40,295 nt of DNA from the NCBI GenBank assembly GCA_003156975.1, contig PMIE01000114.1, forward strand, positions 1 through 40,295, given 5' to 3'. Below, one piece after another: positions 4,865-39,288 of this stretch. The stretch is from Chloroflexota bacterium (GTDB lineage Bacteria > Chloroflexota > Limnocylindria > Limnocylindrales > CSP1-4). The notes under the pieces are model-generated. The model made no database searches. It was not told the DNA's origin and saw only the letters and a program-made list of their open reading frames with translations. The position numbers and the translations under genes were made by a program. Each line of letters starts with the position of its first letter. Position 1 is the stretch's first letter.

Positions 4865-4891
4865 TCAAGCCCATGGCCTTGTCACCGACAC
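4865..4891 (+). promoter_or_regulatory. Sigma-28-like promoter of the HDOD gene
   Basis: TCAA (4865-4868), a 15-nt spacer, then ACCGACAC (4884-4891). This matches the motility sigma consensus (TAAA-N15-GCCGATAA) and the other seven sites in this window. The -10 ends seven bases before the GTG start at 4899, so the transcript should begin at or next to the start codon. Confidence 0.65.
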
Positions 4892-4898
4892 CCTCTCT

Positions 4899-5780
4899 GT
4901 GGAAGTCCTAACTAGCACAACTCTTGACCGAGCGCGGCAGATCGTCCAGCACGCGCACGCAATCAGCCCGTCCGCCAGCCTCCTCAGGCTAGAGCAGCAG
5001 CTGCGGCAGGGCGACTCGAACGCGCGCCAGCTGGCCAAGCTGATCGACGGCTCCCCCGCCCTCGCGGCCCGCGTTCTGCGGATGGCCAACTCGGCCTTCT
5101 ATGCCCCGGCGGAGCCCGTCACCACCCTGTCACGGGCAGTGGCTCTGCTTGGCGACACGGTTCTGCGACAACTGGTCCTGACCTCGCTCATCGTTTCGCG
5201 GCGGGCAGGCAATCGCAGCCCCCGCGAGGCCCTGGCTGCAGCTCGCTTGACCGGAGACGCCGTTCGCGCCGCCGTCGTTGGCAGGATGCTGGCTCAGATG
5301 TCTCGGTCCGCCGACCCCGACACCACCTTCGCAGCCGGCCTGCTCCACGACCTCGGCCATGTCTATCTGCTCGACGATGTTGGCGAACGCTACGCCAGCT
5401 ACTTGCTCGACCCGCACGCCCACGACGCCCGCAACGCCGCCGGCCAGCTGGACATGGAGATCGAACTCTCCGGCACCACGCATCAGGATGTCGGCGCCGT
5501 GTTCGCATACGAGTGGAACCTGCCCCCGGTCATCGCCAGGGTTCTGTGGGACCACCACGTACCGAGCCCGGGTTCGCTGGGTTCCTTGATCGCCGGCTCC
5601 GACGTCCTCCTTCGCGAGCTCAGCTACCCAACCGTCGTCGACGCCGCCGATCAGCAGCTCGAAGGCGACGCGGTGCTTGCCGCCCTGAACATCACCCGTG
5701 AGCGCTGGGACGAACGCGCCGCAACCGTGCGCGAGTCCTTCTCGGAGCTGCTCTCGATCTTCGACGTCCAGGCTGGCTGA
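4899..5780 (+). CDS. HDOD domain signalling protein
   Basis: The protein has 293 residues. An HDOD domain covers about residues 20-215, with the signature GSPALAARVLRMANSAFY region and the HD-like GLLHDLGHVYLLD segment. HDOD proteins are usually non-catalytic scaffolds in motility, chemotaxis and c-di-GMP signalling. The GTG at 4899 is preferred because a sigma-28-like -10 ends only seven bases upstream and no Shine-Dalgarno is present, which together point to a leaderless mRNA starting at this codon. The gene stands alone, divergent from the ABC operon and convergent with the flagellar operon. The promoter links it to the late motility regulon. Confidence 0.85.
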   Translation: MEVLTSTTLDRARQIVQHAHAISPSASLLRLEQQLRQGDSNARQLAKLIDGSPALAARVLRMANSAFYAPAEPVTTLSRAVALLGDTVLRQLVLTSLIVSRRAGNRSPREALAAARLTGDAVRAAVVGRMLAQMSRSADPDTTFAAGLLHDLGHVYLLDDVGERYASYLLDPHAHDARNAAGQLDMEIELSGTTHQDVGAVFAYEWNLPPVIARVLWDHHVPSPGSLGSLIAGSDVLLRELSYPTVVDAADQQLEGDAVLAALNITRERWDERAATVRESFSELLSIFDVQAG

Positions 5781-5858
5781 TCCCTCTTCGCACTCCGCGC
5801 TTCCGGCGCCTCCTGGCCTGGTTCGGCGTGCGCGTCGCGCGGGTTGGGTGACGCGAGA

Positions 5859-9624: not shown

Positions 9625-12600
9625 CTAGGCCCTGATGTCGAGGGACGAACCGCCGGGGAGCGGTGCTTTCGACGATGGTTGATTGGCTCTGATTGGCTCC
9701 GGGCGGGCGACGGGCGACGGCCTGGGCGTTGCGCGCGAGCCCTCGCCGCTTCCCGGCTGGCCGCCTGTGCCGGTGCCGGCAGCTGCCGCTTCCCCATTGC
9801 CGGAAGCCTGGCCGTGGCTTCCGTTGGCGCCCGGCCCACTGCCGGCGCCGTACCCGCTTCCGGCAGTCCAGCCGGCAGCTTCGAATGCATTGCCGCCGGC
9901 GCGGCCACCGGTCGAGGAATTGCCTCCTTCACTTCTGACGGTGACACTCACCCCGGCCAAGCCGTCGCCTGCGGCGCGCATGCGGGCAACCGCAGCGGTG
10001 ATGGCATCGGCCGAAATGCGGTCACGGACGACAAGCTGCGCCTGGACGATCTCGCCGGCGCGGCCGGTCACGACCATCCGGACATCACCCAGGTTCGGGT
10101 CGCTGATGCGGGCCTCGAGTGCCGGTCCGGCGGCCGTCTGGAAGGTGTGGATCGTCTGGACGACCTGGCTCATCAGTTTGTCGGCCGCATCGGTCAGATC
10201 GACGGACGGTCGGACGTCCAGGACCGACTCGCCCTGGGCGAGCCTGGAGGCTGCTCCGGTCAACGCGCCGGCGCCCGAGAGGGCGGCAGCCGCATTCAGT
10301 GCCGAAGAGGCGGAAGCGGCCTCGCTCGAAGCGCCCGCACCCGGAGTTGCGGAAACCGCGGCGGCATCCGACTGAGCGTTGGACCGGGAGCCATCCGACT
10401 CGCCAGCCGACGTGCCCGCCGAAGCAGACCCGCCGATGGAGGTGGCCGGCGCGGAACGGCCGGCGGTTGTCGTTTCGCCCGTGCCGTCTGAGTCATAGGC
10501 CATCGGAGCAAACGCGGAACCACCACGGCGGACAACATGCTGGACGATTCGGGCCGCTTCCGGCGGAGCGGAACTTGCGGCCGCCGTGGCGGCCACTTCC
10601 GGCGCCGCGGCCGAGGCTTCCACCGCCGGCAGAACGGCCGGGGCGGGCGCGGCAGGGACAGCCGAGGCGGTCGGCGAGGTCGAGACGCCAACCGTCGGCC
10701 CGTTGATGGAGTCGGTCCCGGCGGGAACGGCGGGCGCCGAGGTGGCATTCGATGGCGCGGCAGAGGGCGCCGGCCGCGAATTCGCCAGAAGCTGCGAGGA
10801 ACTGGAGTTCGGCGACTGTTCCGCGGTTGTCTGCTGCGAGGCGGAGAGACTCGGCTGCGCCGCAGCAGAAGCGGCCGAAGCAGCTGGAGCGGCTGGCGCG
10901 GCGACGGTCGAGCCACCCGACGCCGGGGACTTCACCGTCACCGGGATCGCGGGAGAAGCCCAGCTGCTCGGGATCTGGGAACCGAGCCCCGATGACGCGG
11001 CCGGCGACCCGGCGGCGAGGCCTGACGCGGCGGGCGAACCCGGGAAGCTCGTCACGGTCGAGATGGCCGCTTCAACCGGCGAGAGTCGCTGCGCGGGCGA
11101 AGACGGAGTGAACTGCAGCGGCTCCGCCGCTGAGCTTCCGGCGGGTAGGCTTTCGATAGCCGCAGCCTGACCTGTCCGATCGGCCGGCAACGCACTTGCC
11201 ATCGAAGTCGAAAGAGCCGGCGCCGCGGCCCCTGCGGTCGGGGTAGCCGACGGCACCACCGGCCGACCGTCCGCGCTCGCGGTCGAGGCAGCGACCTGCG
11301 TCGTGGCCGACCGTGCGCCCGCGGCTTCAGTGGCGCCGTACGCCGACACCGCTGGCGTGGTCGTCGCGGGCTGTGCCTGGAATGACGCGGCCCATGCCTG
11401 GCCGGAGGAACGTGCCGCAGTGGCGGGCCCGCTCGGATCGGACGCGCCGGACGAGAGCGCGACCGATGCGGCGCCGCCCGCCAGAGGATTGGCATCGGAC
11501 GGAGCGGCCGCGGCCATCGTTGCCGTGGTCGTGGATGTGGCCGCGGCAGGCGGCGCTGCGGTTCCCGCTGCCGGGTCGCTCGTCGCCGGCGCACCCCGGA
11601 GAGCAGCTACCGCCGCGGCCTGAGCGGCGGGCACGGCCGGTAAGGCCGCAGGCACCTCGGCCGAGTCCGGCGCAAGCGCGGCGACGCCGGCGGCCGAGAC
11701 CGTGGCACCGGCCGGGGCAGTGGCAATAGGACTCTGCGTCGCGGCGGCCACGGCAGCGGTCAGACTCTGTGAGGTGGAGGTCTTCGTGGAGCCACTGGCG
11801 GGAGCCTCACCGACGGACGCCGAGTCGGCCTCCACGGCAGCGGGTTGCGATCCTGCGGCCCGAACGGGTCTAGCCGACGACCTGGTGTCGGCGGTTCGCC
11901 CGATCACGCGACCGGTGAATTGGTTCGCGGGAAGTACCTGGCCGGCGCTATCGCCGGGCAGTGGGGCCGACGCCGGAGAGATCGCCGCGCGCGTCGGCTG
12001 AACGGCCGGAGCGGCCGACTGGGTCGGCTGTGGCGAGGGACCGACGGTCGATGTGGCCGCCGGAGCGCTGGAGGCGGAGGCCGCCGGAGCTTGACCCGCG
12101 GCCGGAGCCGGAGCAGCCGGCTGGACAACTGCCGATGCAGGAGAGGACGCCGTCCCGACCGAACTGGCGCTTGCGGTACCCGCGCTCCCAGCGGGAGAAG
12201 TCGCCGGCGCAGAAGTATTCGCAACCGCAGCCGCGGACGCGCCGCCCACAGCGCCAACCGAGTCGACTGCAGACGTGACGTCGCCCGCGCCTGCCGCCGA
12301 ACCCTGCGGGAAGCTGCCGGACTCTGCCCCGGCATCCGGCTGGGACGCGGCCGCGCTCAGAGCCGCTGCGGTGAAGCCGTCTTCCCGACCATGGCTCGCC
12401 GCGCCGTGGGGGGCCGACGTTGCGGATCCGCTTCGGCGAGCCGGCCTGGCCGAGTCTGTCTTGAGCCTGGAAGCCCTCGAATTCAGCTTCGACTCTCCCT
12501 CGACCGAGTTCTGCCAGATCGGAGATCGCGCCGAAGTTGCGCCACTGGGATCTACCGGCCGAGTCGCCGCGCTGAAGCGACTCGGGCTGCCGGCTGCCGG

Positions 12601-12777
12601 CGCCTCGATTTGGCGCGCGGCGACATCCTGGGCGGCGTGGGCGTCCAGCCGCGTGGCCTGGGCCTCGGCGAAGGCATCGCCGAAGGTCGGCTCGTCGGGG
12701 CCGGCCGGGATGTTGACCTGGCCGGGGATCGGAACGACGCCGGGGCCGAGCGTAACGTTGGCAGACAGACCGGCCAT
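9625..12777 (-). CDS. fliK: Very long flagellar hook-length control protein FliK
   Basis: The protein has 1050 residues, more than twice the usual 400-500. The first 880 or so residues are almost entirely Ala, Ser, Pro, Thr and Gly and look disordered. A FliK C-terminal (Flg_hook-type) domain is visible at about residues 875-980: DLTDAADKLMSQVVQTIHTF, then ALEARISDPNLGDVRMVV and VARMRAAGDGLAGVSVTVRS. A Gly-rich tail follows. FliK acts as the hook ruler and switches the export apparatus from hook to filament substrates. The gene starts two bases after the flgB stop, and its stop codon lies next to the flgD Shine-Dalgarno. Identity rests on the C-terminal domain and the flgB/flgD neighbourhood. 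Confidence 0.85.
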   Translation of the reverse strand: MAGLSANVTLGPGVVPIPGQVNIPAGPDEPTFGDAFAEAQATRLDAHAAQDVAARQIEAPAAGSPSRFSAATRPVDPSGATSARSPIWQNSVEGESKLNSRASRLKTDSARPARRSGSATSAPHGAASHGREDGFTAAALSAAASQPDAGAESGSFPQGSAAGAGDVTSAVDSVGAVGGASAAAVANTSAPATSPAGSAGTASASSVGTASSPASAVVQPAAPAPAAGQAPAASASSAPAATSTVGPSPQPTQSAAPAVQPTRAAISPASAPLPGDSAGQVLPANQFTGRVIGRTADTRSSARPVRAAGSQPAAVEADSASVGEAPASGSTKTSTSQSLTAAVAAATQSPIATAPAGATVSAAGVAALAPDSAEVPAALPAVPAAQAAAVAALRGAPATSDPAAGTAAPPAAATSTTTATMAAAAPSDANPLAGGAASVALSSGASDPSGPATAARSSGQAWAASFQAQPATTTPAVSAYGATEAAGARSATTQVAASTASADGRPVVPSATPTAGAAAPALSTSMASALPADRTGQAAAIESLPAGSSAAEPLQFTPSSPAQRLSPVEAAISTVTSFPGSPAASGLAAGSPAASSGLGSQIPSSWASPAIPVTVKSPASGGSTVAAPAAPAASAASAAAQPSLSASQQTTAEQSPNSSSSQLLANSRPAPSAAPSNATSAPAVPAGTDSINGPTVGVSTSPTASAVPAAPAPAVLPAVEASAAAPEVAATAAASSAPPEAARIVQHVVRRGGSAFAPMAYDSDGTGETTTAGRSAPATSIGGSASAGTSAGESDGSRSNAQSDAAAVSATPGAGASSEAASASSALNAAAALSGAGALTGAASRLAQGESVLDVRPSVDLTDAADKLMSQVVQTIHTFQTAAGPALEARISDPNLGDVRMVVTGRAGEIVQAQLVVRDRISADAITAAVARMRAAGDGLAGVSVTVRSEGGNSSTGGRAGGNAFEAAGWTAGSGYGAGSGPGANGSHGQASGNGEAAAAGTGTGGQPGSGEGSRATPRPSPVARPEPIRANQPSSKAPLPGGSSLDIRA

Positions 12778-12779: not shown

Positions 12780-13232
12780 CTAGTGCCCTCCAAGGACGTC
12801 GTACAGCTGGGAAAACTTGCCTGAGATGAGGCGCGAATTCGCCTCGAACTTGATTTGAGCCTCAGTCAGGGCCGTCATTTCGGTCTCGAGATCGACCTTG
12901 TTGCCGTCGTTTCGGATGTTCTCGCTGGTGGCCGAGACGCTTGCCGACGTGCCGTCGTTGAGTGTTCCGGTCAGCGAGAAGTGGCGCGGGTCTGTGGTTT
13001 CCATGGCCACGGCAGCAGAAGGTCCGGCGGAGGGAGGAAGGCCGATGTCGGAGGACGAGGAGTTCATCGACGCGTACTCGTTCTGCAGGGCCGTCTCAAA
13101 GTCGACCGCCTCTGGCGTGTAGTTGGGCGTGTCGATGTTTGCCAGGTTGGACGAGATGACCGCCTGCTGGCTCGTCAGGCCGTCGAGGGCCTGACCGAGG
13201 ATCGTCATCGTGGGATCGATCAGGCCGCTCAT
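12780..13232 (-). CDS. flgB: Flagellar proximal rod protein FlgB
   Basis: The protein has 150 residues. The N-terminal rod signature SSNLANIDTPNYTPEAVDF is at about residues 27-45, and the C-terminal helix EMTALTEAQIKFEANSRLIS is typical of FlgB. It forms the proximal rod together with FlgC and FliE and is exported by the type III apparatus. It overlaps the murein hydrolase stop by four bases. It is separated from flgC by about 7 kb, whereas flgB-flgC-fliE are usually adjacent. Confidence 0.93.
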   Translation of the reverse strand: MSGLIDPTMTILGQALDGLTSQQAVISSNLANIDTPNYTPEAVDFETALQNEYASMNSSSSDIGLPPSAGPSAAVAMETTDPRHFSLTGTLNDGTSASVSATSENIRNDGNKVDLETEMTALTEAQIKFEANSRLISGKFSQLYDVLGGH

Positions 13233-14410
13233 AGAGAAGGCTCCTGATAACTGGACCAGGTCTTGAGGATCTTCGATACGTAGTACTTCTTGCTATCGGG
13301 GACCGCACCGAGACGGCTGACGGCGCCCGCTCCCGCGTTGTACGCGGCCAGGGCCAGATCCACGCGGCCGAAGCGCTTGAGCTGCTTGGCCAGGTACTTG
13401 GCTCCGCCGGTGAGGTTCTGCAGCGCATCGAACGGATTTGCGACGCCCATCGCCACGGCCGTCTTCGGCATGAGCTGCGTGAGCCCCTCCGCTCCGCAGC
13501 TGGAGACGGAATTCACGTGGAAGCTCGACTCGGCCTTCACGAGTCCGGTCAGCAAGAGCGGGTCGATGCCGGCGGCGATCGCGGCCGAGCGAATCTGGGA
13601 GGCATACGGAATGCGCGACGAAACCGCATCGAAACGCGCCAGAGCGGCGCTGCCGGACTCTTGGGTCATGACCGAAGGGTCGCTTGCCGAAGGGCCCAAG
13701 AGGGTTGCGGGATTTGGCAGATGACCGACCTTCAGCCACGGCGAGGGGTCGATCGCCGTGCCGCCGCTCGTGAACAAGCTGAAGTGGAGGTGCGGGCCGG
13801 TCGTGTTGCCGGTCATGCCGACTTCGCCGATCTTTTCGCCGGCAGTCACGCGTTCGCCGACCTTGACCGGGAGCGACGGGTTCAAATGCCCGTACATGGT
13901 CACATGGCCATCGTCGTGGCGGATCTTCACGACAACCGCGCCGCTCGACTGCCTGCCCGCGAAGATCACGGTGCCGTCGGCCGCGGCATGGACCGCGGTA
14001 CCGAGGCGCGCCGCCAGGTCGATGCCGTTGTGGTAGTGGGCATAGGTGACGCCGTTGACCTTCGCCGAGGGCTCGAGGGTCTCGCTCGTCGGCCCGAACG
14101 CCTGGGTCAGACGCCCGCCCGACAGCGGCGAGCTGAAGGCCATATTCGAAGTCGAAACCGCCGGATGAGCGGCGATGCCCGCCGACGTGACGTACACATT
14201 GGAGCCGGTCAGGCCCATCAGGACGTCCGAGAATGGCGAGTTGCCGTCGATCGCCTGCGTCGTTGTGTCGGAGGTCGCCGAAGTCGCCGCCGACCCTACG
14301 AGTCCGCCAACTCCCCAAAGCGAACCGGCACCGGTCGACCAATCCTGGCTGCTGCCACGGACGAGCGTGTCCAGTTGGGAGATGCGTGCGACGCAGTCGG
14401 CGTAACTCAT
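13229..14410 (-). CDS. Bifunctional flagellar murein hydrolase: M23 peptidase plus SLT lytic transglycosylase
   Basis: The protein has 393 residues. An N-terminal linker of about 90 residues has no signal peptide or membrane span. An M23 (LytM-type) domain follows at about 95-225, with zinc ligands His127 and Asp131 (HNGID) and His207/His209 (GPHLHF), plus YGHL. A GH23/SLT domain lies at about 265-385, with catalytic Glu294 in KAESSF, then GLTQLMPKTA and AYNAGAGAV. All key residues of both enzymes are present, so it should cut peptide cross-links and glycan strands. Position between fliJ and flgB, four-base overlaps on both sides and the missing signal peptide suggest export through the flagellar apparatus and a FlgJ-like role in rod passage. 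Confidence 0.88.
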   Translation of the reverse strand: MSYADCVARISQLDTLVRGSSQDWSTGAGSLWGVGGLVGSAATSATSDTTTQAIDGNSPFSDVLMGLTGSNVYVTSAGIAAHPAVSTSNMAFSSPLSGGRLTQAFGPTSETLEPSAKVNGVTYAHYHNGIDLAARLGTAVHAAADGTVIFAGRQSSGAVVVKIRHDDGHVTMYGHLNPSLPVKVGERVTAGEKIGEVGMTGNTTGPHLHFSLFTSGGTAIDPSPWLKVGHLPNPATLLGPSASDPSVMTQESGSAALARFDAVSSRIPYASQIRSAAIAAGIDPLLLTGLVKAESSFHVNSVSSCGAEGLTQLMPKTAVAMGVANPFDALQNLTGGAKYLAKQLKRFGRVDLALAAYNAGAGAVSRLGAVPDSKKYYVSKILKTWSSYQEPSL

Positions 14411-20735: not shown

Positions 20736-20781
20736 TTGGGCGCTTCCTCGGCTGTCCGGCGGATACTTCCCGGGATCTATT

Positions 20782-22518: not shown

Positions 22519-22533
22519 CGGAGAAGCCAAGTC

Positions 22534-23386: not shown

Positions 23387-23470
23387 AAGTTCGCTCTCCG
23401 GACCCTTGCTTCGTCCGAATCGGCGGAATCGGCCATTTGTGGTGGCGCCTGGCAACGCTATTGGTGTTTA

Positions 23471-23481
23471 CCCTGTCAGGG
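23471..23481. promoter_or_regulatory. CCCTG-T-CAGGG palindrome upstream of flaG
   Basis: A perfect 11-bp dyad lies 16 bases before the flaG sigma-28-like -35. It uses the same CAGGG half-site as the dyad upstream of flgC, in inverse order. A role as operator is speculative. Confidence 0.3.
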
Positions 23482-23496
23482 ATAGCACCTAAACGG

Positions 23497-23523
23497 TCAA
23501 GTCCCGCGGCTGCCACCCGATTC
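23497..23523 (+). promoter_or_regulatory. Sigma-28-like promoter of flaG
   Basis: TCAA (23497-23500), 15-nt spacer, CCCGATTC (23516-23523). The start codon lies 13 bases further on, so the leader would be about six bases and no Shine-Dalgarno is present. Confidence 0.6.
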
Positions 23524-23536: not shown

Positions 23537-23839
23537 ATGGCAACCAACGACCTTCTCCCAACGGCACTCGTCGCCACCGGATCCGCTCCGGCAGCGATCT
23601 CTCAGGCTGCGCCAACATCGCTTGGCCCGGCGAGGGATCACTTCTCCAAGCAGGCCGGCGCCGACGTGTCCTTCAAGGGACCGGATGGGATGACTGAGGC
23701 GTACGCCGTGTTCCAGATCGATCCTGTCAGCAAGCAGCTACAGGTGATGGTCGTGGACGCGGAGGGTCGCGTGCTTCGTGCGATTCCCCCACGCTCAGTC
23801 AACCAGATGATGGAATCGATGGGTCGCTACCGGCCGTAG
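23537..23839 (+). CDS. flaG: FlaG-like flagellar filament protein
   Basis: The 100-residue protein has a disordered first half. The second half, TEAYAVFQIDPVSKQLQVMV then VDAEGRVLRAIPPRSVNQMM, fits the FlaG pattern (beta hairpin, V-x-R-x-IPP, then helix). FlaG proteins influence filament length and are usually encoded beside fliD. Here the gene lies upstream of the chemotaxis genes. The ATG at 23537 follows a sigma-28-like promoter directly. Family assignment is by motif only. Confidence 0.7.
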   Translation: MATNDLLPTALVATGSAPAAISQAAPTSLGPARDHFSKQAGADVSFKGPDGMTEAYAVFQIDPVSKQLQVMVVDAEGRVLRAIPPRSVNQMMESMGRYRP

Positions 23840-24010: not shown

Positions 24011-24038
24011 TCAAGTCAAGGCCTGACGCGACCGATGC
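24011..24038 (+). promoter_or_regulatory. Sigma-28-like promoter of cheC-cheD-cheY
   Basis: TCAA (24011-24014), 16-nt spacer, ACCGATGC (24031-24038), about 97 bases before the cheC ATG. The rest of the 295-nt gap between flaG and cheC (23840-24134) shows no supported gene. Confidence 0.55.
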
Positions 24039-24134: not shown

Positions 24135-24779
24135 ATGACCCTAACCCTCTCCGAAGCCGGTCAGCACGCAGTCGCGGGCACTTTCGGGCGAGCCATGAAG
24201 CGCGCCGGCGAGGCCCTCGGCTCGATGAGCGGTCAGGTCATCGATGTCCAGACCCCCATGGTCCAAAGATGCAGTGCATCTGATGTGATGGCCATGGCCG
24301 GCGGACCCGAGTCCGTCGTGCTCGCCGTCTACGTCGGTATCACTGGGTCTCTGCAGGGGCATGCCCTGTTGCTCTTCTCCCCCGCCGACGCCCACCGCCT
24401 TGCTCAGATTCTGCTCGCAGGTCTGCTGGGCCCAGGTGAGTTGCCGATGGAAGAATCAACGAACGTCCTCGACTACGACGAACTCGAGCTTTCGGCACTC
24501 CAAGAAGCGGGCAACGTCACGATTTCCGCCTTCCTGAATGAGCTCGGGATGCATCTCCATGAGCCCGTGATGCCGACGCCACCTCAAGTCGTCATCGAGA
24601 TGGCCGGCGCCGTCCTCGATGCCGTGCTGCTCGACCTCGTGAGCGACGCCGATCAGGTGCTGGCCGCGAAGACCACCTTCAGCGAAGGCGGCCGCGACAT
24701 CGACGGATCTCTCTTTGTCCTGCCGCGCGCCGATAGCCTCCGGGTCCTCCTGGACGCTCTCGGAGCGATCGGGATATGA
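24135..24779 (+). CDS. cheC: CheC-type CheY-P phosphatase
   Basis: The 214-residue protein resembles CheC, which dephosphorylates CheY-P and binds CheD. The second CheC motif is intact: ELSALQEAGNVTISAFLNEL, E-x2-N followed later by Pro (EPVMPTPP). The first, N-terminal motif reads EAGQ, with Gln where Asn is expected, so only one active site may work. AAGGGGA precedes the ATG. It overlaps cheD by four bases, which supports joint action. Confidence 0.88.
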   Translation: MTLTLSEAGQHAVAGTFGRAMKRAGEALGSMSGQVIDVQTPMVQRCSASDVMAMAGGPESVVLAVYVGITGSLQGHALLLFSPADAHRLAQILLAGLLGPGELPMEESTNVLDYDELELSALQEAGNVTISAFLNELGMHLHEPVMPTPPQVVIEMAGAVLDAVLLDLVSDADQVLAAKTTFSEGGRDIDGSLFVLPRADSLRVLLDALGAIGI

Positions 24780-25261
24780 CACTTACCGAGAGCCCCAGTC
24801 TCCTGATCGCCGGCATCGGCGAGATGGTCCTGAGCTCAAGCCCAGACTCCCACCTTGTGGCCTACGGCCTTGGCTCGTGCATTGCCGTCGCGGCCTGGGA
24901 CCCCCGCGCCAAGGTTGGCGGGCTGGCCCATTTCATGCTGCCCAGCGGGCCGGCCAATGAAAGCAGCCCGGTCAAGTTCATCGACACCGGCCTCGACACC
25001 TTCCTCAAGGCATTCCAGGCTAAAGGAGCCATGATCAGCCGGAGCACCTTCAAGGCGGCCGGTGCCGCGGCGATGCTGATGGTTGGCGGTGGGCTCGCTA
25101 TCGGCAAGCGCAACGCGGAGTCGATGGAAGCGGCTCTCAAAGAACGAGGGATTTCCCTCACGGCCACAGCTCTTGGTGGAAATGCCGGCCGGACCGTTCA
25201 ACTTGAAGTGGGCGACGGCCGATTCCTAATCAAGAGCTTGTCTTCAATGGTCGAATTGTAG
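24776..25261 (+). CDS. cheD: Chemoreceptor glutamine deamidase CheD
   Basis: The 161-residue protein belongs to the CheD family, which deamidates receptor glutamines and activates CheC. The catalytic Cys35 (GLGSC) and His52 (LAHFML) have the expected 17-residue spacing, and the C-terminal GGNAGRTVQLEVGDGRF is conserved. The third catalytic residue, Thr six positions before Cys in the Thermotoga enzyme, is Ala29 here. The gene overlaps cheC by four bases. Confidence 0.92.
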   Translation: MTLTESPSLLIAGIGEMVLSSSPDSHLVAYGLGSCIAVAAWDPRAKVGGLAHFMLPSGPANESSPVKFIDTGLDTFLKAFQAKGAMISRSTFKAAGAAAMLMVGGGLAIGKRNAESMEAALKERGISLTATALGGNAGRTVQLEVGDGRFLIKSLSSMVEL

Positions 25262-27026: not shown

Positions 27027-27053
27027 TCAGAAAGTGCGCCCGAGCACCGATAC
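27027..27053 (+). promoter_or_regulatory. Sigma-28-like promoter of cheW-cheX-cheA
   Basis: TCAG (27027-27030), 15-nt spacer, ACCGATAC (27046-27053), followed by CTAGG. The 12-base extended -10 ACCGATACCTAG resembles those of cheR and fliS. The leader is about 55 bases with AAGGAG before the GTG. Confidence 0.65.
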
Positions 27054-27113: not shown

Positions 27114-27602
27114 GTGGCCGATAAGCAAATGTCCAGCGGCAACGGTCGGTCTGGCGAGTTGCAGATCGTCGTGTGCGAGCTGGCTGACGAGCACTACGGC
27201 TTGGACATCGCCAAGGTCTTCGAGATCATCCGTCATCAGCCGATCACACCGGTCCCGCGAGCCCCCCGGTTCGTCAAGGGCGTGATCAATCTTCGTGGTC
27301 GGATCATTCCGGTCGTCGACCTGCGTGGCCGCTTCGGAATGGCCGAAGTCGAACCTACCAAGGAAACGCGCATTGTCGTCGCCGAGAGCTCGGCGACCCG
27401 TGTGGGGCTCATCGTCGACAGCGTGTCGGAAGTCCTGCTCCTGCCTTTGGATTCGGTGGAAGCTACGCCCGGCGTCGCCTCCGGCGCCGACGCCGAGTAC
27501 CTGCGAGGCATCGCCAAACTGGGTGACCGGCTCGTTCTCCTCCTCGAACTGGACGGCTTGTTCGGCCTCGAGGAACAGACCGCCCTGGCCGGAGCCGCAT
27601 GA
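27114..27602 (+). CDS. cheW: Chemotaxis coupling protein CheW
   Basis: The 162-residue CheW domain contains LADEHYGLDIAKVFEIIRHQ, FVKGVINLRGRIIPVVDLRG and VGLIVDSVSEVL. It couples receptors to CheA. The GTG at 27114 has AAGGAG nine bases upstream. One base separates it from cheX, so cheW-cheX-cheA form one unit. Confidence 0.95.
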   Translation: MADKQMSSGNGRSGELQIVVCELADEHYGLDIAKVFEIIRHQPITPVPRAPRFVKGVINLRGRIIPVVDLRGRFGMAEVEPTKETRIVVAESSATRVGLIVDSVSEVLLLPLDSVEATPGVASGADAEYLRGIAKLGDRLVLLLELDGLFGLEEQTALAGAA

Positions 27603-28069: not shown

Positions 28070-30412
28070 ATGCGCCTGACCTTCGATCTGCAAGAGGGGG
28101 ACGACCGTCTCTTCACCGACGAGTCCATGGAACAGATCGAAAGGATCGAACAAGGCCTGCTCGACCTCGAGCACGACCTTGACCCCGCCGTAGTCAACGA
28201 AGTCTTCCGCGCGGCTCACACCCTCAAGGGATCGGCCGCCACGATCGGCCACCGCCGCATGACCGAACTGACCCATGCCATGGAAGACCTCTTCGGGGCC
28301 TTCCGAAGCGGAACCCTCCACGACGTGAAGCCCTTCGCGGATGTTCTGCTGGCAACGATCGACGTGCTCCGCGCTCTGGTCGCCGAAATCCAGGAGGGAG
28401 AGACTCTGACCGAGGCCGCGGAGCCCCTGACCAAGCAACTCCGCGAGTTGCTCGCCAGCGCCACTGCGACGGCCGCAGCTCGTTCCACCGCACCCAAACC
28501 GGCACCGCGGCCGGCGGCCGGCACGGTTGTGGCAGTCCCCGACCTCGCCGACGAGTCCGAAGCGGCCCAGGCCGCGGTCGACGAGTCCGAGGTAGTCGAC
28601 GAAGGCGTGAGCAACCTCGCCGTTGCGCCGCTCATTCATCGTCTGCTGGTCGAGTCTCCGGGCGGATTCGAGCCACGATCGATCTTCGTCTGCCGCATCG
28701 ATCCGATGAGCGAGTGGCAGTCGGTTCGACTGCTTCAGCTGGTGCTCGAGGCCGAAGAGACAGGGGACCTGGTCGCGTCCGTGCCGAGCCGCGAGGAGAT
28801 CGAATCGGGCCTCGGGACGATGATGCTGGCGATGCTGATCAAGGGTCGTCCGATCGAGCTGCTCGATCTTCGCAAGCGCCTCGCCGCAATCGACGATGTC
28901 GTCAGCGTAGAGGCAGTGGCCGCTCCCCTCGGCGCGCCCGAAAACGAAGCTGTGGAGACGGCGCTCAGCGTCGACATCTACGGCCCGAGCGATCAGGAGC
29001 CGGCGCCGCTCGGTGCCGCTCGCACCGACGACGAGAACGCGGCCGGGCCGCCAAGCGTTTCCGAGCGCCGCCAGGCAGACCTCGGAGCAGAAGCACGAGG
29101 CCTCCCTCAGGGCGAGCGGATGACCGTCGCGGGCGATCGACTCAAGGCCGCCCAGCAGACCATCCGCATCGACGTTACTCGCCTCGACGAGCTGATGAAC
29201 CTCGTCGGCGAGCTCGTCGTCCATAAGACTCGCCTGCAGCAAAGTGCCCAACTTCTCGCCCACCGACTCGGCGACGACCCGCTGGCGCGTCAGGCCGACG
29301 AAGACTCGCAGCAATTCGCCCGCATCGCCGGCCAGCTCCAGGATCAGGTCACCGGCCTGCGGATGCTACCCATCGAGACGGCCTTCAATCGCTTCCCGCG
29401 TGTCGTGCGCGACATCGCCATGCGCCTCAACAAGGAAGTCCAGCTGGTCATCGAGGGCAAGGAGACCGAGCTCGACCGGTCCGTCCTCGAAGAAGTTGGC
29501 GATCCGCTCGGCCACCTGGTCCGCAACGCGATGGACCACGGCGTCGAAACACCCGAAGAGCGGCGCGCCCTCGGCAAGTCGCTGCCGGCCACGGTCCGCC
29601 TCACGGCCCGCCACGCCGACGGCCGCATCCTGATCACGGTTGAGGACGACGGCAGGGGGATGGATCCCGCGGCGTTGCGAAAGTCCGTGGTCGAGAAGGG
29701 CCTGATGACCCGCGAGCAGGCCGACCTCACCAGTGACGCGGAGATGCTACGAGTCATCTTCACTCCTGGGTTCTCGACGGCCAAGGTCGTCACGGAGGTC
29801 TCCGGCCGCGGCGTCGGCATGGATGTCGTCCGCAGCAACATCGAACACCTGGGTGGTTGGGTTGACGTCACGAGCACGCCCGGCCTGGGCACACGCGTTT
29901 CGCTGTCACTGCCTCTGACCCTGGCCATCATCGGTGCGCTCCTCGTGAAGTCGGGAGCGCGGGTTTGCGCCCTGCCGTTGACGGGCGTCGTTGAGACGCT
30001 CCGGGTCGAGCCCAAGTCGTTCAGCCGTGTCCGGGGCCACAATGTCCTGACCCTGCGCGACCGCGTCATCCCCGTTGAGCAGCTGGACAACGCCCTCGGC
30101 GATCCGCCCCGCCCGCTCCTGACCAACGAGCGCGGTTTCATCAACCTGGTCGTGGTCCGGTCGCGCGGCACCGAGATGGCGCTCGCCGTCGATGCCTTCG
30201 TCGGCCAGCACGAGATCGTGCTGAAGTCCCTGAGCGACGTCACAGGCCAGCGAGCCGGGCTCGCCGGGGCCACGATAATGGCCGACGGCACCGTGGGCCT
30301 CGTCGTCGACATCGCCGCGCTGCTCGAGCACACGAGTTGGCGCCCCGAGGACGATGCCGCCGCCGAAGCCGCTGCCGAAGCTCAGGCCAGGCCCCGCCGC
30401 AAGGTCGCGTAG
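28070..30412 (+). CDS. cheA: Chemotaxis histidine kinase CheA
   Basis: The protein has 780 residues. An Hpt domain spans about 1-125, with His50 in AAHTLKGSAATIG. A P2-like, CheY-binding-type domain lies around 185-300, flanked by Ala/Pro and acidic linkers. The dimerisation helix is RLDELMNLVGELVVHKTRL. The ATPase core has HLVRNAMDHGVETPEER, VEDDGRGMD and STAKVVTEVSGRGVGMDVV. A CheW-like domain runs from about 615 to 755. CheA passes phosphate from receptors to CheY and CheB. It starts one base after cheX and is the last gene of its unit. Confidence 0.96.
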   Translation: MRLTFDLQEGDDRLFTDESMEQIERIEQGLLDLEHDLDPAVVNEVFRAAHTLKGSAATIGHRRMTELTHAMEDLFGAFRSGTLHDVKPFADVLLATIDVLRALVAEIQEGETLTEAAEPLTKQLRELLASATATAAARSTAPKPAPRPAAGTVVAVPDLADESEAAQAAVDESEVVDEGVSNLAVAPLIHRLLVESPGGFEPRSIFVCRIDPMSEWQSVRLLQLVLEAEETGDLVASVPSREEIESGLGTMMLAMLIKGRPIELLDLRKRLAAIDDVVSVEAVAAPLGAPENEAVETALSVDIYGPSDQEPAPLGAARTDDENAAGPPSVSERRQADLGAEARGLPQGERMTVAGDRLKAAQQTIRIDVTRLDELMNLVGELVVHKTRLQQSAQLLAHRLGDDPLARQADEDSQQFARIAGQLQDQVTGLRMLPIETAFNRFPRVVRDIAMRLNKEVQLVIEGKETELDRSVLEEVGDPLGHLVRNAMDHGVETPEERRALGKSLPATVRLTARHADGRILITVEDDGRGMDPAALRKSVVEKGLMTREQADLTSDAEMLRVIFTPGFSTAKVVTEVSGRGVGMDVVRSNIEHLGGWVDVTSTPGLGTRVSLSLPLTLAIIGALLVKSGARVCALPLTGVVETLRVEPKSFSRVRGHNVLTLRDRVIPVEQLDNALGDPPRPLLTNERGFINLVVVRSRGTEMALAVDAFVGQHEIVLKSLSDVTGQRAGLAGATIMADGTVGLVVDIAALLEHTSWRPEDDAAAEAAAEAQARPRRKVA

Positions 30413-31750: not shown

Positions 31751-31759
31751 GTCAGCCGG
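31743..31759. terminator. Hairpin across two convergent stop codons
   Basis: CCGGCT (31743-31748) and AGCCGG (31754-31759) form a 6-bp stem with a 5-nt loop. The stop codon of the glycosyltransferase (31748-31750) and that of the HD-GYP gene (31754-31752) lie in or at the edge of the loop, with one base between the genes. It could act in both directions. Confidence 0.4.
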
Positions 31760-32783
31760 CGACCCGCATGATGCCGGCGATGTTGGCGGCGCCATCGAGG
31801 CCGGTGGACATGGCGTTGAGGCCGCCGAGCAGCTTGATGAACTCCCGCAGAATCTCGTCGCTGAACTGGCCTCGCATCGACACGCGCATCACATGAAGGG
31901 CGTCGAAAGCGCTCACCGGCATCCGGTACGGGCGTCGAGTGGTGAGCGCATCGAAGGCGTCGACGATGCCGACCAGCTGCGCGTCCATGGCGATGCCGCC
32001 TGCCGCGCGGCCGGCCGGATAACCGGAGCCGTCGCACCGCTCGTGGTGCTCACCGACGATGTGCGCATAGGAAGGGGCATAGCCGAGCGCTCGAACGATC
32101 ATCTCGTAGCCTGCCTTGACATGCGTCCGCATCACCTGCCACTCGGTCGCGTCCAGAGCCGACGGCTTGTCCAGGACTACGCGCGGCACTCGGTTCTTGC
32201 CGATGTCGTGGAGCAAACCGCCGCGGGCTACGTCCCGGATCGCATCCGCATTGCCGAACTGCATGAAGCGGGCCAGGACGATGCCGTAGACGGCTGTGTT
32301 GATGGCGTGAGTGTGCGTGGCGACGTGCTTCTGCATCGTGGCGACCATGGCCCAGACCATCTCCTCATCCTCGATCAAGTGAAGGGTGATTGCGTCGATG
32401 GCCTGGTGAGTCAGCAACAGCCCGTCGTGGTCGAGGGGATTCTCGCGAGTGAAGATGGGGCTCAGGACCTTAGCGGCAATCGAGTAGGCGGTCTTGCTTC
32501 GTTCGACCGGTGTAACGCGTTGATTCGCAAGGACCGCGGGCAAGGACGCCGCGAGGGCACCTCGCAGCAAGTCCGAATCAACCTCACGGACCAGGAACGA
32601 CATGCCACGCTGGGCCCGATTGATGACCTTGCGCAGGTCGCCGCCCTTCATGGCATAGAGGACCGGCCGTGGACCACGCCAGATATAGAGGTCGCACGGC
32701 AATGTCGAGATATCGGTCAGTACACGGGCCGGTACTGGCTCGTATCCGGGAGGGGCTGGAGTGATGAACGGGTGGGCCGGCAT
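31752..32783 (-). CDS. HD-GYP domain c-di-GMP phosphodiesterase
   Basis: The 343-residue protein has an N-terminal region of about 140 residues without a recognised domain. A complete HD-GYP domain follows: GGLLHDIGKNRVPR, then HHERCDGSGYP and DAFDALTTRRPYR. The metal ligands and the GYP motif are intact, so c-di-GMP hydrolysis is likely. GAGAG precedes the ATG. It is divergent from cheR and has its own sigma-28-like promoter, which places it in the late motility regulon. Confidence 0.92.
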   Translation of the reverse strand: MPAHPFITPAPPGYEPVPARVLTDISTLPCDLYIWRGPRPVLYAMKGGDLRKVINRAQRGMSFLVREVDSDLLRGALAASLPAVLANQRVTPVERSKTAYSIAAKVLSPIFTRENPLDHDGLLLTHQAIDAITLHLIEDEEMVWAMVATMQKHVATHTHAINTAVYGIVLARFMQFGNADAIRDVARGGLLHDIGKNRVPRVVLDKPSALDATEWQVMRTHVKAGYEMIVRALGYAPSYAHIVGEHHERCDGSGYPAGRAAGGIAMDAQLVGIVDAFDALTTRRPYRMPVSAFDALHVMRVSMRGQFSDEILREFIKLLGGLNAMSTGLDGAANIAGIMRVAG

Positions 32784-32821: not shown

Positions 32822-32848
32822 GTGTCGGCCCGCCGTCGAGCCCCTTGA
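32822..32848 (-). promoter_or_regulatory. Sigma-28-like promoter of the HD-GYP gene
   Basis: On the minus strand TCAA (32848-32845), 15-nt spacer, GCCGACAC (32829-32822). The ATG follows 38 bases further. It is back to back with the cheR promoter. Confidence 0.6.
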
Positions 32849-32936: not shown

Positions 32937-32963
32937 TCAATACCACGGCGCGGGCGCCGATAC
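32937..32963 (+). promoter_or_regulatory. Sigma-28-like promoter of cheR
   Basis: TCAA (32937-32940), 15-nt spacer, GCCGATAC (32956-32963). Eight bases separate it from the cheR ATG, so transcription should start at or within two bases of the start codon (leaderless). Confidence 0.7.
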
Positions 32964-32971: not shown

Positions 32972-33811
32972 ATGGAAACTCAACCTCGACCCGCTCGACC
33001 CATTGTCCTGACGACCTTCGCGCCAGCGCCGGAGCTGGACCAGCAGGCCTACGACCGGATGGCTCGCGACGTGCGCAGCCTGCTCGGCATAGACCTGACC
33101 CAGTACAAGCCTGCCCAGGTCTGGCGGCGCGTCAACGGGTTTGCCACGGCCAAGGGCCTGGCCGACGCCGACGCGTTGGTGGCCAGGGTCAGGATGGATG
33201 CCGACCTGCGCCAGGCCTTCCTGGACATGCTGACCATCAATGTGAGCGAGTTCTTCAGGAACCCAGAAGCCTGGGAAGTGCTGGTGGAGCAGCATCTGAA
33301 GCCGATGCTGCTGGGACAGCCAACCGTCCGGATATGGAGCGCGGGCTGCTCGCTCGGATATGAGCCGTTCACGATCGCCATGCTGGCCCGTGAGATCGCG
33401 CCGCAGAAGCCGATCTACATTCTGGCCACGGATCTCGACGACACCATCCTGTCCCGAGCCAAGAAGGGGATATACACCGAGCCTCAAATGGCCGGCGTCT
33501 CGCCCGCCCGTCGGACCCGATTCTTCCGCACAGTTGACAGCAACTGGGAAGTCAAGCCGGAGCTTGCGGCATTGATCACCTGGCGGCGCCACGATCTCCT
33601 GCGAGATCCCTACGAGCACCCCTTCGACATAATCTGCTGCCGCAACGTGGTGATCTACTTCACCGAACCGGCGAAGGCGGAGCTTTACCAGCGCTTCTCT
33701 GAAGCGCTCCGACCCGGTGGCCTGCTCTTCCTCGGCGCGACCGAGTCGATAACAAACGTCAGAGCCGTGGGCCTCCTACCCTCGGGCGGGACTTTCTACA
33801 GGCGTCCCTGA
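32972..33811 (+). CDS. cheR: Chemoreceptor methyltransferase CheR
   Basis: The 279-residue protein has an N-terminal helical domain (DRMARDVRSLLGIDLTQYKP). The methyltransferase domain follows, with TINVSEFFRNPEAWEVL, IWSAGCSLGYEPFTIAMLAR (SAM site), FDIICCRNVVIYF and GGLLFLGATES. CheR methylates receptor glutamates using S-adenosylmethionine. The usual GCSTGEE-type motif reads GCSLGYE here. There is no Shine-Dalgarno, in keeping with a leaderless transcript. The gene stands apart from the main che clusters. Confidence 0.94.
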   Translation: METQPRPARPIVLTTFAPAPELDQQAYDRMARDVRSLLGIDLTQYKPAQVWRRVNGFATAKGLADADALVARVRMDADLRQAFLDMLTINVSEFFRNPEAWEVLVEQHLKPMLLGQPTVRIWSAGCSLGYEPFTIAMLAREIAPQKPIYILATDLDDTILSRAKKGIYTEPQMAGVSPARRTRFFRTVDSNWEVKPELAALITWRRHDLLRDPYEHPFDIICCRNVVIYFTEPAKAELYQRFSEALRPGGLLFLGATESITNVRAVGLLPSGGTFYRRP

Positions 33812-34522: not shown

Positions 34523-34753
34523 GCGGTCCTGGCCGTCCAGGACGCGAAGGATGCGGTCGTCGTTCAGGAGCCGTAGCTCGCGCCGAATCTGCTCCAGCTG
34601 GCACTGCAGCGAGATGAGCAACTCGCGGTCGTCGATCAGGATCCGCTCCAGGCGTCGCTGAATTGCCCTGACGGAGAGCGGGCTGAGGGCGGCGGCCAAT
34701 GTCTCGGCAGCGATCTGGCGCTCGATGTGGTTGGCCTGTGGCGCCGGCATCAT
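34508..34753 (-). CDS. Small helical protein encoded after fliS (possible FliT-like chaperone)
   Basis: The 81-residue protein is predicted to be helical, with heptad-like LERILIDDRELLISLQCQLE and IRRELRLLNDDRILRVLDGQ. It has no Cys motif beyond one residue and no signal peptide. The ATG at 34753 overlaps the fliS stop by four bases (ATGA). A small helical gene directly after fliS is often fliT, the FliD chaperone, but sequence similarity is not evident. It is real by coupling and coding pattern; function unknown. Confidence 0.65.
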   Translation of the reverse strand: MMPAPQANHIERQIAAETLAAALSPLSVRAIQRRLERILIDDRELLISLQCQLEQIRRELRLLNDDRILRVLDGQDRPISN

Positions 34754-35223
34754 CGCCGCGCCGCCGATACAGCATAGGCGCCGGCGCCGGCATATTCGGG
34801 GGTGGACATTGGACGGCGACTTTGCACCGGCTCGACCGGGTCGTCGACCAGAGCGTAAGCCGGGCGGGCCGCGAGATCCTGCCAGGCCTCGAGAAGCCCC
34901 CTGAGAACCTGAAGGGCTTCTTCGGTCGGCCTCGGATCCTTGGTTAGATTGCCCTTCTCCAGACGCTGCAGAACGAAGTCGTACAGGTCGCTCAGCTGAA
35001 CTGCGATCGGACCGGCGGACATATCCAGAGCACCACGAAGGGCGGTCACGATCTCCTGGCAGCGGATCGAAGCCTTGTGCGCCTGCTCGATATCGTGGCG
35101 TTCCGCGAAGGCCAGGTGCTGCGCCCCGAAGCGGATCGCGCCCTGGTAGAGCAGGACGATCTGGCCGGCGCGACTGGCGCTGACAACCTGTGAAGTCCTG
35201 TAGGTTGCGGTCGGATCCAGCAT
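34750..35223 (-). CDS. fliS: Flagellin export chaperone FliS
   Basis: The 157-residue protein contains the FliS core (VVSASRAGQIVLLYQGAIRF, then LSDLYDFVLQRLEKGNLTKD and VLRGLLEAWQDL). FliS binds the flagellin C-terminus and keeps it unfolded for export. A C-terminal tail of about 35 residues is extra. The ATG at 35223 is chosen because it begins the conserved domain and lies about 60 bases after a sigma-28-like promoter; GAGG lies upstream. The longer open frame overlaps that promoter. Confidence 0.9.
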   Translation of the reverse strand: MLDPTATYRTSQVVSASRAGQIVLLYQGAIRFGAQHLAFAERHDIEQAHKASIRCQEIVTALRGALDMSAGPIAVQLSDLYDFVLQRLEKGNLTKDPRPTEEALQVLRGLLEAWQDLAARPAYALVDDPVEPVQSRRPMSTPEYAGAGAYAVSAARR

Positions 35224-35281: not shown

Positions 35282-35309
35282 GTATCGGTTCCGGAGGGAA
35301 TCGTCTTGA
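35282..35309 (-). promoter_or_regulatory. Sigma-28-like promoter of fliS
   Basis: On the minus strand TCAA (35309-35306), 16-nt spacer, ACCGATAC (35289-35282), followed by CTATG. This is the same -10 as at cheW and fliD. Confidence 0.65.
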
Positions 35310-36826: not shown

Positions 36827-36831
36827 GGGCC

Positions 36832-36949: not shown

Positions 36950-36968
36950 CGGCCCGCCTCAGGAGCGG

Positions 36969-39203
36969 CTAGCTGCCGGAGCTGGAGCTGGAGCTGGCGT
37001 TGCTGGTGCCGGTGCCGCTCGATGTGGTGGTGTAGCCGAGCTGGGCGGCAATCTGCTGGGACTGCGACTGCAGCAAGGACAGCGTAGTCTCCATTTGCGT
37101 GAACTGGGCTTCGATCATCGTTGTGTAGTTGTCGATCATCGTCTGGCGCTCGGCCTCCTGACTGTGCAGGGAGGTGATCTCACCGCTGATGCCGGTCGTA
37201 TTCGCCTGGATGTACGTGGTGTTGCTGGACGGATCCTCGTACCCCTGGACCTGGGCCAGCAGTGCAGCCATCGGTCCGGTGGACTGGTCGAGGAGCTTGG
37301 CGACCGCGTTCGGGTCGGCCGTGAGGGCCGCCGAAAGCTTGGCCGTGTCGAGCTGCAGGCGATTGGTCGTACCCACGGGGGCTCCAGCAGCACCAGTGTT
37401 CAGGCCGATCGCTCCAAGCGAGTTTATGGTCCCGCTTCCAAGCGTCTGGAAGACGGTGTCGCGCAGCGTCAGGAACATCATCTTGGCCGTGGGGTCGCTG
37501 GCCAGCGGGCCGGCAGTCCCGGCGGTCCCGCCGGTCGTGCCAGGTGTGGTCGCGGTGGCGCTGTCGAGCGTATCTCCGACGCTGTTGAAGCTCGCCACAA
37601 AGGCCGTCAAGGCATTCTGAACTGCAGTCGTGTCCACGCCGACCGTGAGAGTCTCGACCTGGCCCGTGGGATCCTTGGCGCCCAAGTTCAGAGTCACGCC
37701 GTCGATGACGCCACTGACCGTGTTGCTGGTGTTCGTGATCACCCGGCCGTCTACGGTCACCTGGGAGGTCAGACCGATGGTCTGGGCGTTGGTGGTCCCG
37801 GGGGCCAGCTTGAGTGCCGCCCCGAGAGTTCCGCTCGTGTCCGTGATGTCGATGGCGATCGCGCCGGTGTCCTTCCTGGTCAGAAGGATCTGGTCGTTGG
37901 TCCGATCGATGGAAGCCGTCACGCCGGCGGCCGAGTTGTTGATCGTGGTGATGAGGGTCGAGAGCGAGTCCGTGACGGTGTTGTAACTGATCGCCGTACC
38001 GTTGATCGTCAGGACGCCTGTTGTCGTGGAGGTGAGCCCCGTCAGCCCGGCATTGTCCAGCGCTCCCAGCGTCCGTGCGACACCAAGATTGGTCACGCCC
38101 GTCAGCGTCGGATTGGTTGCATTTGTTACCGTGTTGTTGGAAATCCCGAGGATGCCGAGGGCATTGCTCGCGTCGCTCGCGGCGCCGAATGAGATCGAAT
38201 GAGTAAGGGTGCCCCCGGTCATCGCCAGCTGGAAGCGGTTGCCGACGACCGAGGCCGTCATGACGGCCGATGCGTCGGGGCCCTGGTTGGCGCCGCCGGC
38301 GACGAGCTGGTCCGTAATGGCCTTGCCGAAGCCGGCCATGACCTGGTCCATCGTCGTCTTGGTCGGATCGCCAACTGTGTAGTGGACGAGTATGCCGTCG
38401 ACGATTGCGCTGATCTGACCGGCCGTGATGGAGCCGGGCAGGTTGAGCGAAGCCAGCGTGGGGTCCAGGTAGGCAGTGGCATTGACCGTGGCGTTCTGGA
38501 CGCCGATGAAGCCCTGTGCCTTGAGACCGAGGGCTGTGGCCGCGTTGCTCGTGTCGGCTACGTCGCCAAAAGTCACGTCGTGAGTAGTGGTATTCCCGCT
38601 GATGCTCAGCTGCAGCTTGCCACCGACGATCGATGCGCTGACCGTGCTGGCTCCGTCGGTTGTCTGGAGCTGCGTCTGCAACGCGCTCGACAGACTGTCC
38701 ATGATGTTCTGGAGGGTCGCCGTCGCCGGGTTTCCGATTGCGACCTGAACCGTCGTTCCATCGACAGTGACGGCCATGTTGCCGGCGGTGATCGGGGCGG
38801 CGAGATTGGCCTTGTTCAAGGCGAGCGAGGTGTTCACGGCGCCGGTGACGGCCGCGCCGATGGCGGATGTCGACGCTGCGCGCGTCGCAGTGGCCAGGCG
38901 ATCCACGGAGATCTGGTACGAAGCGACCGCGGCGCTGGTTGTGGCCGTTGCCGTCAACACCGAAGGGCTGGAGGAGGTGGCGGCGCGACTGGAACCGGCG
39001 CTGGTGACGGTGAACGCCTTGATCTTGGCGATGAGGTCGTCCAGGGCGGTCCCGACTCGCGCATAGGAGTCCTTCTGCGCCGAGAGGTCGGCCTCCTTGG
39101 TCTGCATCACCGTCAGTGGCTGCTTCTCGACCGCAACCAGAGCATCGATGATGCTCTGAGTGTTGAGACCGGAAACAACTCCGCCGAACTGGATGGACGG
39201 CAT
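36969..39203 (-). CDS. fliD: Flagellar filament cap protein FliD, enlarged
   Basis: The protein has 744 residues against a usual 450-550. The N-terminal D0 helix VVSGLNTQSIIDALVAVEKQ and the C-terminal coiled coil ITSLHSQEAERQTMIDNYTT (then LSLLQSQSQQIAAQL) are standard FliD. Between them are two homologous repeats of about 105 residues (129-233 and 252-356) and a third related block (386-466) resembling the flagellin-IN motif. The tail is Ser-rich. FliD caps the filament and folds flagellin. GGGAG precedes the ATG at 39203, and a sigma-28-like promoter lies about 58 bases upstream. Confidence 0.93.
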   Translation of the reverse strand: MPSIQFGGVVSGLNTQSIIDALVAVEKQPLTVMQTKEADLSAQKDSYARVGTALDDLIAKIKAFTVTSAGSSRAATSSSPSVLTATATTSAAVASYQISVDRLATATRAASTSAIGAAVTGAVNTSLALNKANLAAPITAGNMAVTVDGTTVQVAIGNPATATLQNIMDSLSSALQTQLQTTDGASTVSASIVGGKLQLSISGNTTTHDVTFGDVADTSNAATALGLKAQGFIGVQNATVNATAYLDPTLASLNLPGSITAGQISAIVDGILVHYTVGDPTKTTMDQVMAGFGKAITDQLVAGGANQGPDASAVMTASVVGNRFQLAMTGGTLTHSISFGAASDASNALGILGISNNTVTNATNPTLTGVTNLGVARTLGALDNAGLTGLTSTTTGVLTINGTAISYNTVTDSLSTLITTINNSAAGVTASIDRTNDQILLTRKDTGAIAIDITDTSGTLGAALKLAPGTTNAQTIGLTSQVTVDGRVITNTSNTVSGVIDGVTLNLGAKDPTGQVETLTVGVDTTAVQNALTAFVASFNSVGDTLDSATATTPGTTGGTAGTAGPLASDPTAKMMFLTLRDTVFQTLGSGTINSLGAIGLNTGAAGAPVGTTNRLQLDTAKLSAALTADPNAVAKLLDQSTGPMAALLAQVQGYEDPSSNTTYIQANTTGISGEITSLHSQEAERQTMIDNYTTMIEAQFTQMETTLSLLQSQSQQIAAQLGYTTTSSGTGTSNASSSSSSGS

Positions 39204-39260
39204 CAGGATCTCCCAGGAGTCTTCGCGGCTCCGCCCCCTACGCAGGAGCGGCCAATCGGG

Positions 39261-39288
39261 GTATCGGTGGCCGCTGGGGAAATCTTGA
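39261..39288 (-). promoter_or_regulatory. Sigma-28-like promoter of fliD
   Basis: On the minus strand TCAA (39288-39285), 16-nt spacer, ACCGATAC (39268-39261). Spacing and -10 are identical to the fliS site. Confidence 0.65.

Follow-up and report, generated by a model that had tools for sequence, protein, structure and literature searches.

Probable sigma-28-type promoters conserved before late motility genes in a Chloroflexota contig

The class-3 promoters of the flagellar sigma factor FliA (sigma-28) in Escherichia coli and Salmonella follow the consensus TAAAGTTT-N11-GCCGATAA. The control of flagellar genes in Chloroflexota seems little studied, and a literature search over titles and the beginnings of abstracts gave, among the matches listed, no paper on sigma-28 promoters in this phylum. 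Here we describe eight sigma-28-like sites in a contig of 40,295 bases (PMIE01000114.1, C130; "the window" below is this whole contig), part of a draft Chloroflexota genome of 2,775,010 bases in 153 contigs. A first-pass annotation of the window had proposed that eight matches to the pattern TCA(A/G)-N15/16-(A/G/C)CCGA(T/C)NC define a late motility regulon. This proposal is supported by the presence of FliA and its anti-sigma factor FlgM, by a further site before the flagellin gene, by conservation in relatives and by the absence of such sites from most regions before neighbouring genes. We consider it very probable that FliA polymerase reads all eight as late flagellar promoters of class III, with FlgM as the anti-sigma factor.

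The sites resemble the FliA class-3 system of E. coli and Salmonella in their CCGAT core, N15/16 spacing and FliA-FlgM pair, and the predicted targets here agree with those in flagellin, fliD, flgM, flgKL and che genes and, for at least one receptor-type gene, probably also in receptors. Both also include a cyclic di-GMP (c-di-GMP) phosphodiesterase gene, yhjH in E. coli and an HD-GYP gene here. For numerical comparison we used FliA-bound E. coli sites mapped by chromatin immunoprecipitation and sequencing (ChIP-seq) from Table 2 of PMC4183435; 28 of its 52 rows were taken, 25 of which score above 4 (the paper counts 26), and 13 rows were counted as motility promoters because the paper names their genes as flagellar or flagellar-related. 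Within the phylum, Thermomicrobium roseum encodes, according to the available part of its genome report (PMC2615216), fliA and flgM alongside a complete set of flagellar genes; these lie on a megaplasmid, and that part contains no analysis of promoters. Other Chloroflexota families carry T(C/A)AA-N15/16-GCCGAT at their flagellin and flgM loci, with TCAA common.

Promoter sites, sigma factor and conservation

All eight sites are present where the first-pass annotation had placed them (Table 1), seven with TCAA and one, before cheW, with TCAG. It had further described all of them as intergenic and correctly oriented. Orientation holds for 8/8 and the intergenic position for six; fliS and fliD are preceded by intergenic sites only with starts at 35223 and 39203, the longest open reading frames (ORFs) of both genes covering their own promoter sites. 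We favour the shorter genes because homology supports them. The TCAA form of the pattern (TCAA-N15/16-VCCGAYNC) matches the window 8 times, at seven of the eight sites and at 25198-25225. Shuffling the window 100 times with its dinucleotides preserved gave 0.25 matches on average and never as many as 8. As also claimed, no such promoter precedes the early flgC operon, where no site in the right orientation scores 9.5 or more in the window and the best scores in 3 relatives are 6.3-8.2.

A FliA/SigD homologue was found on contig C41 (6750-7421). It matches the FliA/WhiG model TIGR02479 at 230.9 bits, against a cut-off of 189.6, and contains sigma regions 2, 3 and 4. The same contig encodes FlgM (5436-5738; TIGR03824, 63.5 bits, cut-off 40.75). 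In the longest fliA ORF (L047:6699-7910, on C41) the sigma domains begin at about residue 161, following a long, acidic, low-complexity N-terminal stretch, parts of which align with 11 of the 15 related loci. CsrA-like and FliW genes also adjoin on this contig (L047:1602-2345), between flgL and flagellin, and suggest post-transcriptional control of flagellin.

We built a matrix from the eight window sites and ran it on stretches with other motility genes. The matrix included TCAAG and the -10 8-mer, whereas positions 9 and 10, immediately downstream, lay outside it. Held-out sites were recovered: flagellin has an exact match 70 nucleotides (nt) upstream of its start codon (C41:163-189, - strand), flgM has a relaxed copy, its 8-mer ending in T, 28 nt upstream (C41:5767-5793), a Cache-HAMP ORF truncated by the end of C96 has another exact match close to its 5' end, and a receptor gene on C106 has an upstream site with a shorter spacer. 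Of the flagellin, mot and receptor genes named in the first-pass annotation for a test of enrichment, flagellin and one receptor-type gene (C96) have the exact pattern, and motA and three of five receptor loci have no good match. Genes outside the window were called by a heuristic on GC content by codon position, which wrongly put the flagellin site in coding DNA owing to a spurious ORF (C41:1-189). Since flagellin and fliD follow each other in the same order in four relatives (L054, L059, L060 and L065), the junction between C130 and C41 probably falls within the flagellin gene, whose 5' end is likely the one on C41.

The motif, its positions and its conservation were observed directly, as was the presence of fliA and flgM. 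For the chemotaxis region we compared CheR-centred regions from 12 genomes of the same genus, and for flgM, flagellin and fliD the fliA-centred loci of relatives; rows of the same genome (e.g. L054/L099, L055/L100) were merged when identical in sequence. The named FliA relatives are metagenome-assembled genomes (MAGs) of Chloroflexi (15 loci, 13 with isolate names fen_10xx). In related Chloroflexi MAGs the pattern occurs at near-fixed distances from ten start codons. Together with the 10 sites of this genome, the 83 found in relatives make up 93 unique sites; for each gene the highest-scoring matrix match no more than 7 nt away from a preset distance to the start codon was taken. The distance from flgM to its site is exactly 28 nt in 11/11 fliA-centred loci; the flagellin site is found at 70-72 nt in 8/9 and the flaG site at 13 nt in 6/6. 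Sites are likewise kept before fliD (4/4 distinct relatives), fliS (6/6) and the cheC-like gene (8/8, with an N16 spacer after TCAA every time). The HD-GYP gene keeps its -10 and position in 11/11 distinct relatives, two of which have TAAA. Of the 13 unique cheR sites, that of the window among them, 12 have a distance of 8 nt and one has 7 nt, and the HDOD gene has its site 7-8 nt before the start codon in 8/8 orthologues, two with a weaker -10. Relatives of cheW keep the -10 with a degenerate -35 (TCAC, TCAG, TAAC or TTAC).

Upstream regions scoring 12 or more amounted to 53/56 for seven promoter genes versus 7/67 for nine neighbouring control genes. Six of these seven control regions lie before cheY, inside CheD coding DNA, and one before the LuxR gene. 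The match at 25198-25225 is one that precedes cheY; the TCAA form was found there in 3/9 upstream rows, among the matches listed, and probably reflects coding conservation, an internal promoter being the alternative.

Motif make-up and the start codons below it

The consensus over these sites reads T-C-A-A(-G), N14 or N15 after the G, N-C-C-G-A-Y-N-N, then C, then T/C. In and just below the -10 of the 93 sites CCGA is found in 93, Y in 92, C at position 8 in 68, C at position 9 in 92 and T/C at position 10 in 93; the -35 is TCAA in 80, TCAC in 6, TCAG in 2, TAAA in 2 and another sequence in 3. The counts for TCAA and CCGA, and the constancy of the distances, are biased upward because the sites were selected with the matrix at preset distances; position 9 lay outside the matrix. 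The -10 had been described as ending in C. This did not hold, the last base of the 8-mer being C in just 68/93, and it was discarded as the fixed C, which lies one base downstream (92/93).

The first-pass annotation had also seen the -35 as shifted to TCAA. TCAA is indeed the rule here and the canonical TAAA is rare (2/93), but TCAA is not special. FliA-bound E. coli flgKL, fliL and modABC carry it in the rows used (PMC4183435, Table 2), and we therefore did not treat TAAA as defining for a FliA regulon. Together with its occurrence in other Chloroflexota families, these sites rule out TCAA as the mark of a new specificity. The E. coli motility promoters have TAAA in 8/13 and TCAA in 2/13 of the rows used, compared with TCAA in 80/93 here, where it was part of the search matrix. 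They further differ at position 8, mostly C here and A in E. coli, and at position 9, C in 5/13 there and in 92/93 here; moreover, two start codons lie only 7-8 nt below the -10 here.

Position 9 also separates these sites from those of other families. In 24/24 better-scoring sites outside the family (22 distinct sequences, L267-L269 being one) it is T, A or G, so that C occurs in 0/10 flagellin and 0/14 flgM sites; these were read by eye in few families, and the thresholds (at least 12.4 for flagellin, 10/29 loci; at least 12 for flgM, 14/27 loci) were set after the scores had been seen. Weaker sites have C in 12/32 (7/19 flagellin, 5/13 flgM), and many of them may not be promoters. A second genus of the same family (G362: L147, L259) has C in both sites seen. 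The mark of the lineage is therefore the C at position 9 and not TCAA.

If sigma-28 transcripts start 7-8 nt below the 8-base -10, the leader of HDOD (7 nt) and cheR (8 nt) would be none or one base, and that of flaG (13 nt) about 6 nt. The distance from -10 to start codon is 7-8 nt in 13/13 cheR and 9/9 HDOD sites, own included, although the intervening bases vary, as would follow from a start codon whose place is set by that of the transcription start. The HDOD and cheR messages are thus predicted, from their sequence, to be leaderless or nearly so. In the available part of a survey of leaderless genes (PMC3160421), such genes were found in 4 of 12 Chloroflexi genomes, with a mean of 4.7 percent of genes.

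Alternative explanations

The set possibly represents a local dialect of the known FliA class-III type. The fuller proposal, that the family has its own sigma-28 dialect (TCAA with CCGAYNN-C-Y and a near-obligatory C below the -10) plus leaderless cheR and HDOD on FliA promoters, is one that we hold tentatively, at slightly below even confidence. Under that proposal the position-9 C would point to a change in how FliA contacts the -10 at its downstream edge, and some late motility proteins would be translated without a ribosome-binding site. Speaking against a dialect are two loci of the weaker set with C at position 9 (L125 and L133), which have TCAA and a near-consensus -10 and are plausible promoters.

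Alternatively, the pattern could be so loose that GC-rich DNA matches it by chance, the matches near motility genes having been picked by eye. The full pattern has 86 matches in the 2,775,010 bases (22 for a reversed-pattern control), and the heuristic gene map puts 65 in coding DNA, 11 in intergenic DNA and 10 near an ORF 5' end. The pattern is therefore specific only when combined with position and conservation; as a stand-alone genome-wide test it was dropped as too loose, and so was a relaxed version with C at position 9 (120 matches, 48 for the reversed control). The first-pass annotation had named matrix hits in random intergenic regions, if as frequent as those at motility genes, as a ground for rejection; coding DNA is indeed hit often. 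Nine of the 86 matches fall in the window, where 1.25 would be expected by length, and the base right after the 8-mer is C in 20/65 coding, 9/11 intergenic and 6/10 near-ORF-start matches. Chance is refuted by conservation, since each of the ten genes has its site at a near-fixed position in between 4 and 12 relatives, and no shuffle in 100 reached the observed count; we give it practically no weight.

Another alternative sigma factor, of the extracytoplasmic function (ECF) or sigma-B/F type, might run these motility genes. The genome has seven more matches to the FliA model, all below the cut-off, and the -35 is TCAA instead of TAAA. Yet FliA is encoded together with FlgM, the CCGAY core and N15/16 spacing equal those of E. 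coli ChIP-seq sites in the rows used, TCAA ones included, and the targets are the classic class-III set, all of which makes this reading very unlikely. Still less likely are activator binding sites overlapping ordinary sigma-A promoters. An activator may act at the conserved DNA above the flaG site (TCAGGGA..CCCCTAAACG), but the sites consist of two blocks separated by a nearly constant N15/16, oriented as promoters would be and placed 7-97 nt upstream of start codons, and HDOD and cheR leave no room for a separate -10 closer to the start codon.

Several observations weigh against FliA promoters of the late class. Besides the many coding matches, one strong match to the motif is found in intergenic DNA upstream of a GDSL-lipase-like gene (L011:1501-2531; C16:28636), possibly a false positive or a FliA target outside motility. 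No good matrix match was found at three of five receptor loci (C69, C116 and C61), nor upstream of flagellin in the relative L056, and two cheW relatives lack the -35. The motA gene, often FliA-dependent in other bacteria, has no good site within 250 nt upstream (best score 7.3); over the same distance the best scores of motA, flhA, fliL, fliA and three other C41 genes range from 3.9 to 11.4. In the rows used of the E. coli table, motAB is among the FliA sites (PMC4183435, Table 2). The genome is an incomplete MAG (84.7 percent completeness, 153 contigs).

Features of the window and proposed expression programme

Table 1. Predicted sigma-28-type promoters and associated genes in the window (forward-strand positions; distances run from the -10 to the start codon)
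Feature	Position	Strand	Remarks
Sigma-28-type promoter of HDOD gene	4865..4891	+	TCAAG-N14-ACCGACAC-C; GTG start 4899 lies 7 nt below
HDOD-domain gene, predicted leaderless	4899..5780	+	Pfam HDOD 137.9 bits; orthologues align from residue 1
Sigma-28-type promoter of flaG	23497..23523	+	ATG 23537 lies 13 nt below
flaG	23537..23839	+	Pfam FlaG 19.7 bits, under the 23.8 cut-off (weak)
Sigma-28-type promoter of cheC-like gene	24011..24038	+	would head cheC-cheD-cheY-cheB
cheC/cheX-like gene	24135..24779	+	weak Pfam CheX (18.1 bits) and CheC (14.8 bits), both below cut-off
Ninth pattern match, absent from first-pass list	25198..25225	+	in 3' end of cheD, 59 nt before cheY
Sigma-28-type promoter of cheW	27027..27053	+	would head cheW-cheX-cheA; -35 TCAG in window
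cheW	27114..27602	+	Pfam CheW 137.3 bits
cheA	28070..30412	+	Pfam Hpt, H-kinase_dim, HATPase_c and CheW domains
HD-GYP phosphodiesterase gene	31752..32783	-	Pfam HD_5; HDIGK and HHERCDGSGYP motifs in translation
Sigma-28-type promoter of HD-GYP gene	32822..32848	-	position as in first-pass annotation
Sigma-28-type promoter of cheR	32937..32963	+	ATG 32972 lies 8 nt below
cheR, predicted leaderless or with one-base leader	32972..33811	+	Pfam CheR 174.7 bits
fliS	34750..35223	-	Pfam FliS 100 bits in frame of start 35223
Sigma-28-type promoter of fliS	35282..35309	-	ATG 35223 lies 58 nt below
fliD	36969..39203	-	Pfam FliD_N and FliD_C
Sigma-28-type promoter of fliD	39261..39288	-	ATG 39203 lies 57 nt below
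Flagellin 3' end, truncated by contig end	39793..40293	-	Pfam Flagellin_C 92.3 bits

The conserved DNA above the flaG promoter occupies 23460-23496, directly adjoining it, recurs with changes in 6 relatives and is perhaps an activator site. In the stretch covered by 20736-21060 and 21061-23205, genes for a histidine kinase and for a response regulator of the LuxR type diverge from the flgC operon, which they also adjoin in relatives. Within the divergent gap, a TACCAA block and a conserved inverted repeat (GGGTC..GACCC, followed by GATACCG) are shared by the window with 3 relatives; early flagellar genes may be controlled from this candidate site. Between flgE and the rod genes an ORF of 1050 amino acids (9625-12777, -) has no Pfam match and sits where the hook-length protein FliK is usually encoded. 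A fusion of peptidase M23 and SLT transglycosylase (13229-14410, -) within the run of rod and hook genes resembles the M23/SLT fusion reported in the available part of the T. roseum paper (PMC2615216).

The targets (filament, cap, chaperone, junction, chemotaxis, receptor and anti-sigma genes) are the classic late set. We infer FliA recognition, operon extents, the timing of FlgM export, start sites and leaderless translation. In the proposed scheme, the hook-basal-body genes would be made first, from another type of promoter; on completion of the hook FlgM would presumably be exported, and FliA would be freed. The freed FliA would then transcribe flagellin, fliD, fliS, flaG and the flgM-flgK-flgL cluster, together with cheC/D/Y/B, cheW/X/A, cheR, at least one receptor-type gene, the gene of the HD-GYP c-di-GMP phosphodiesterase and the HDOD gene. 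At HDOD and cheR the start codon would be the expected transcription start, and at flaG it would lie about 6 nt below. In E. coli, yhjH is thought to lower c-di-GMP once the hook is built. By analogy with this gene, FliA-dependent in the rows used (PMC4183435, Table 2), the HD-GYP protein may lower c-di-GMP after the hook has been built.

The analysis provides a conserved promoter set with its sigma and anti-sigma factors and a list of targets, among them an HDOD protein and a phosphodiesterase for c-di-GMP. It also yields a testable claim, that some late motility genes are leaderless, as predicted. With a C at position 9 in almost every site of one family and in few sites of others, these promoters offer a natural experiment on sigma-28 specificity.

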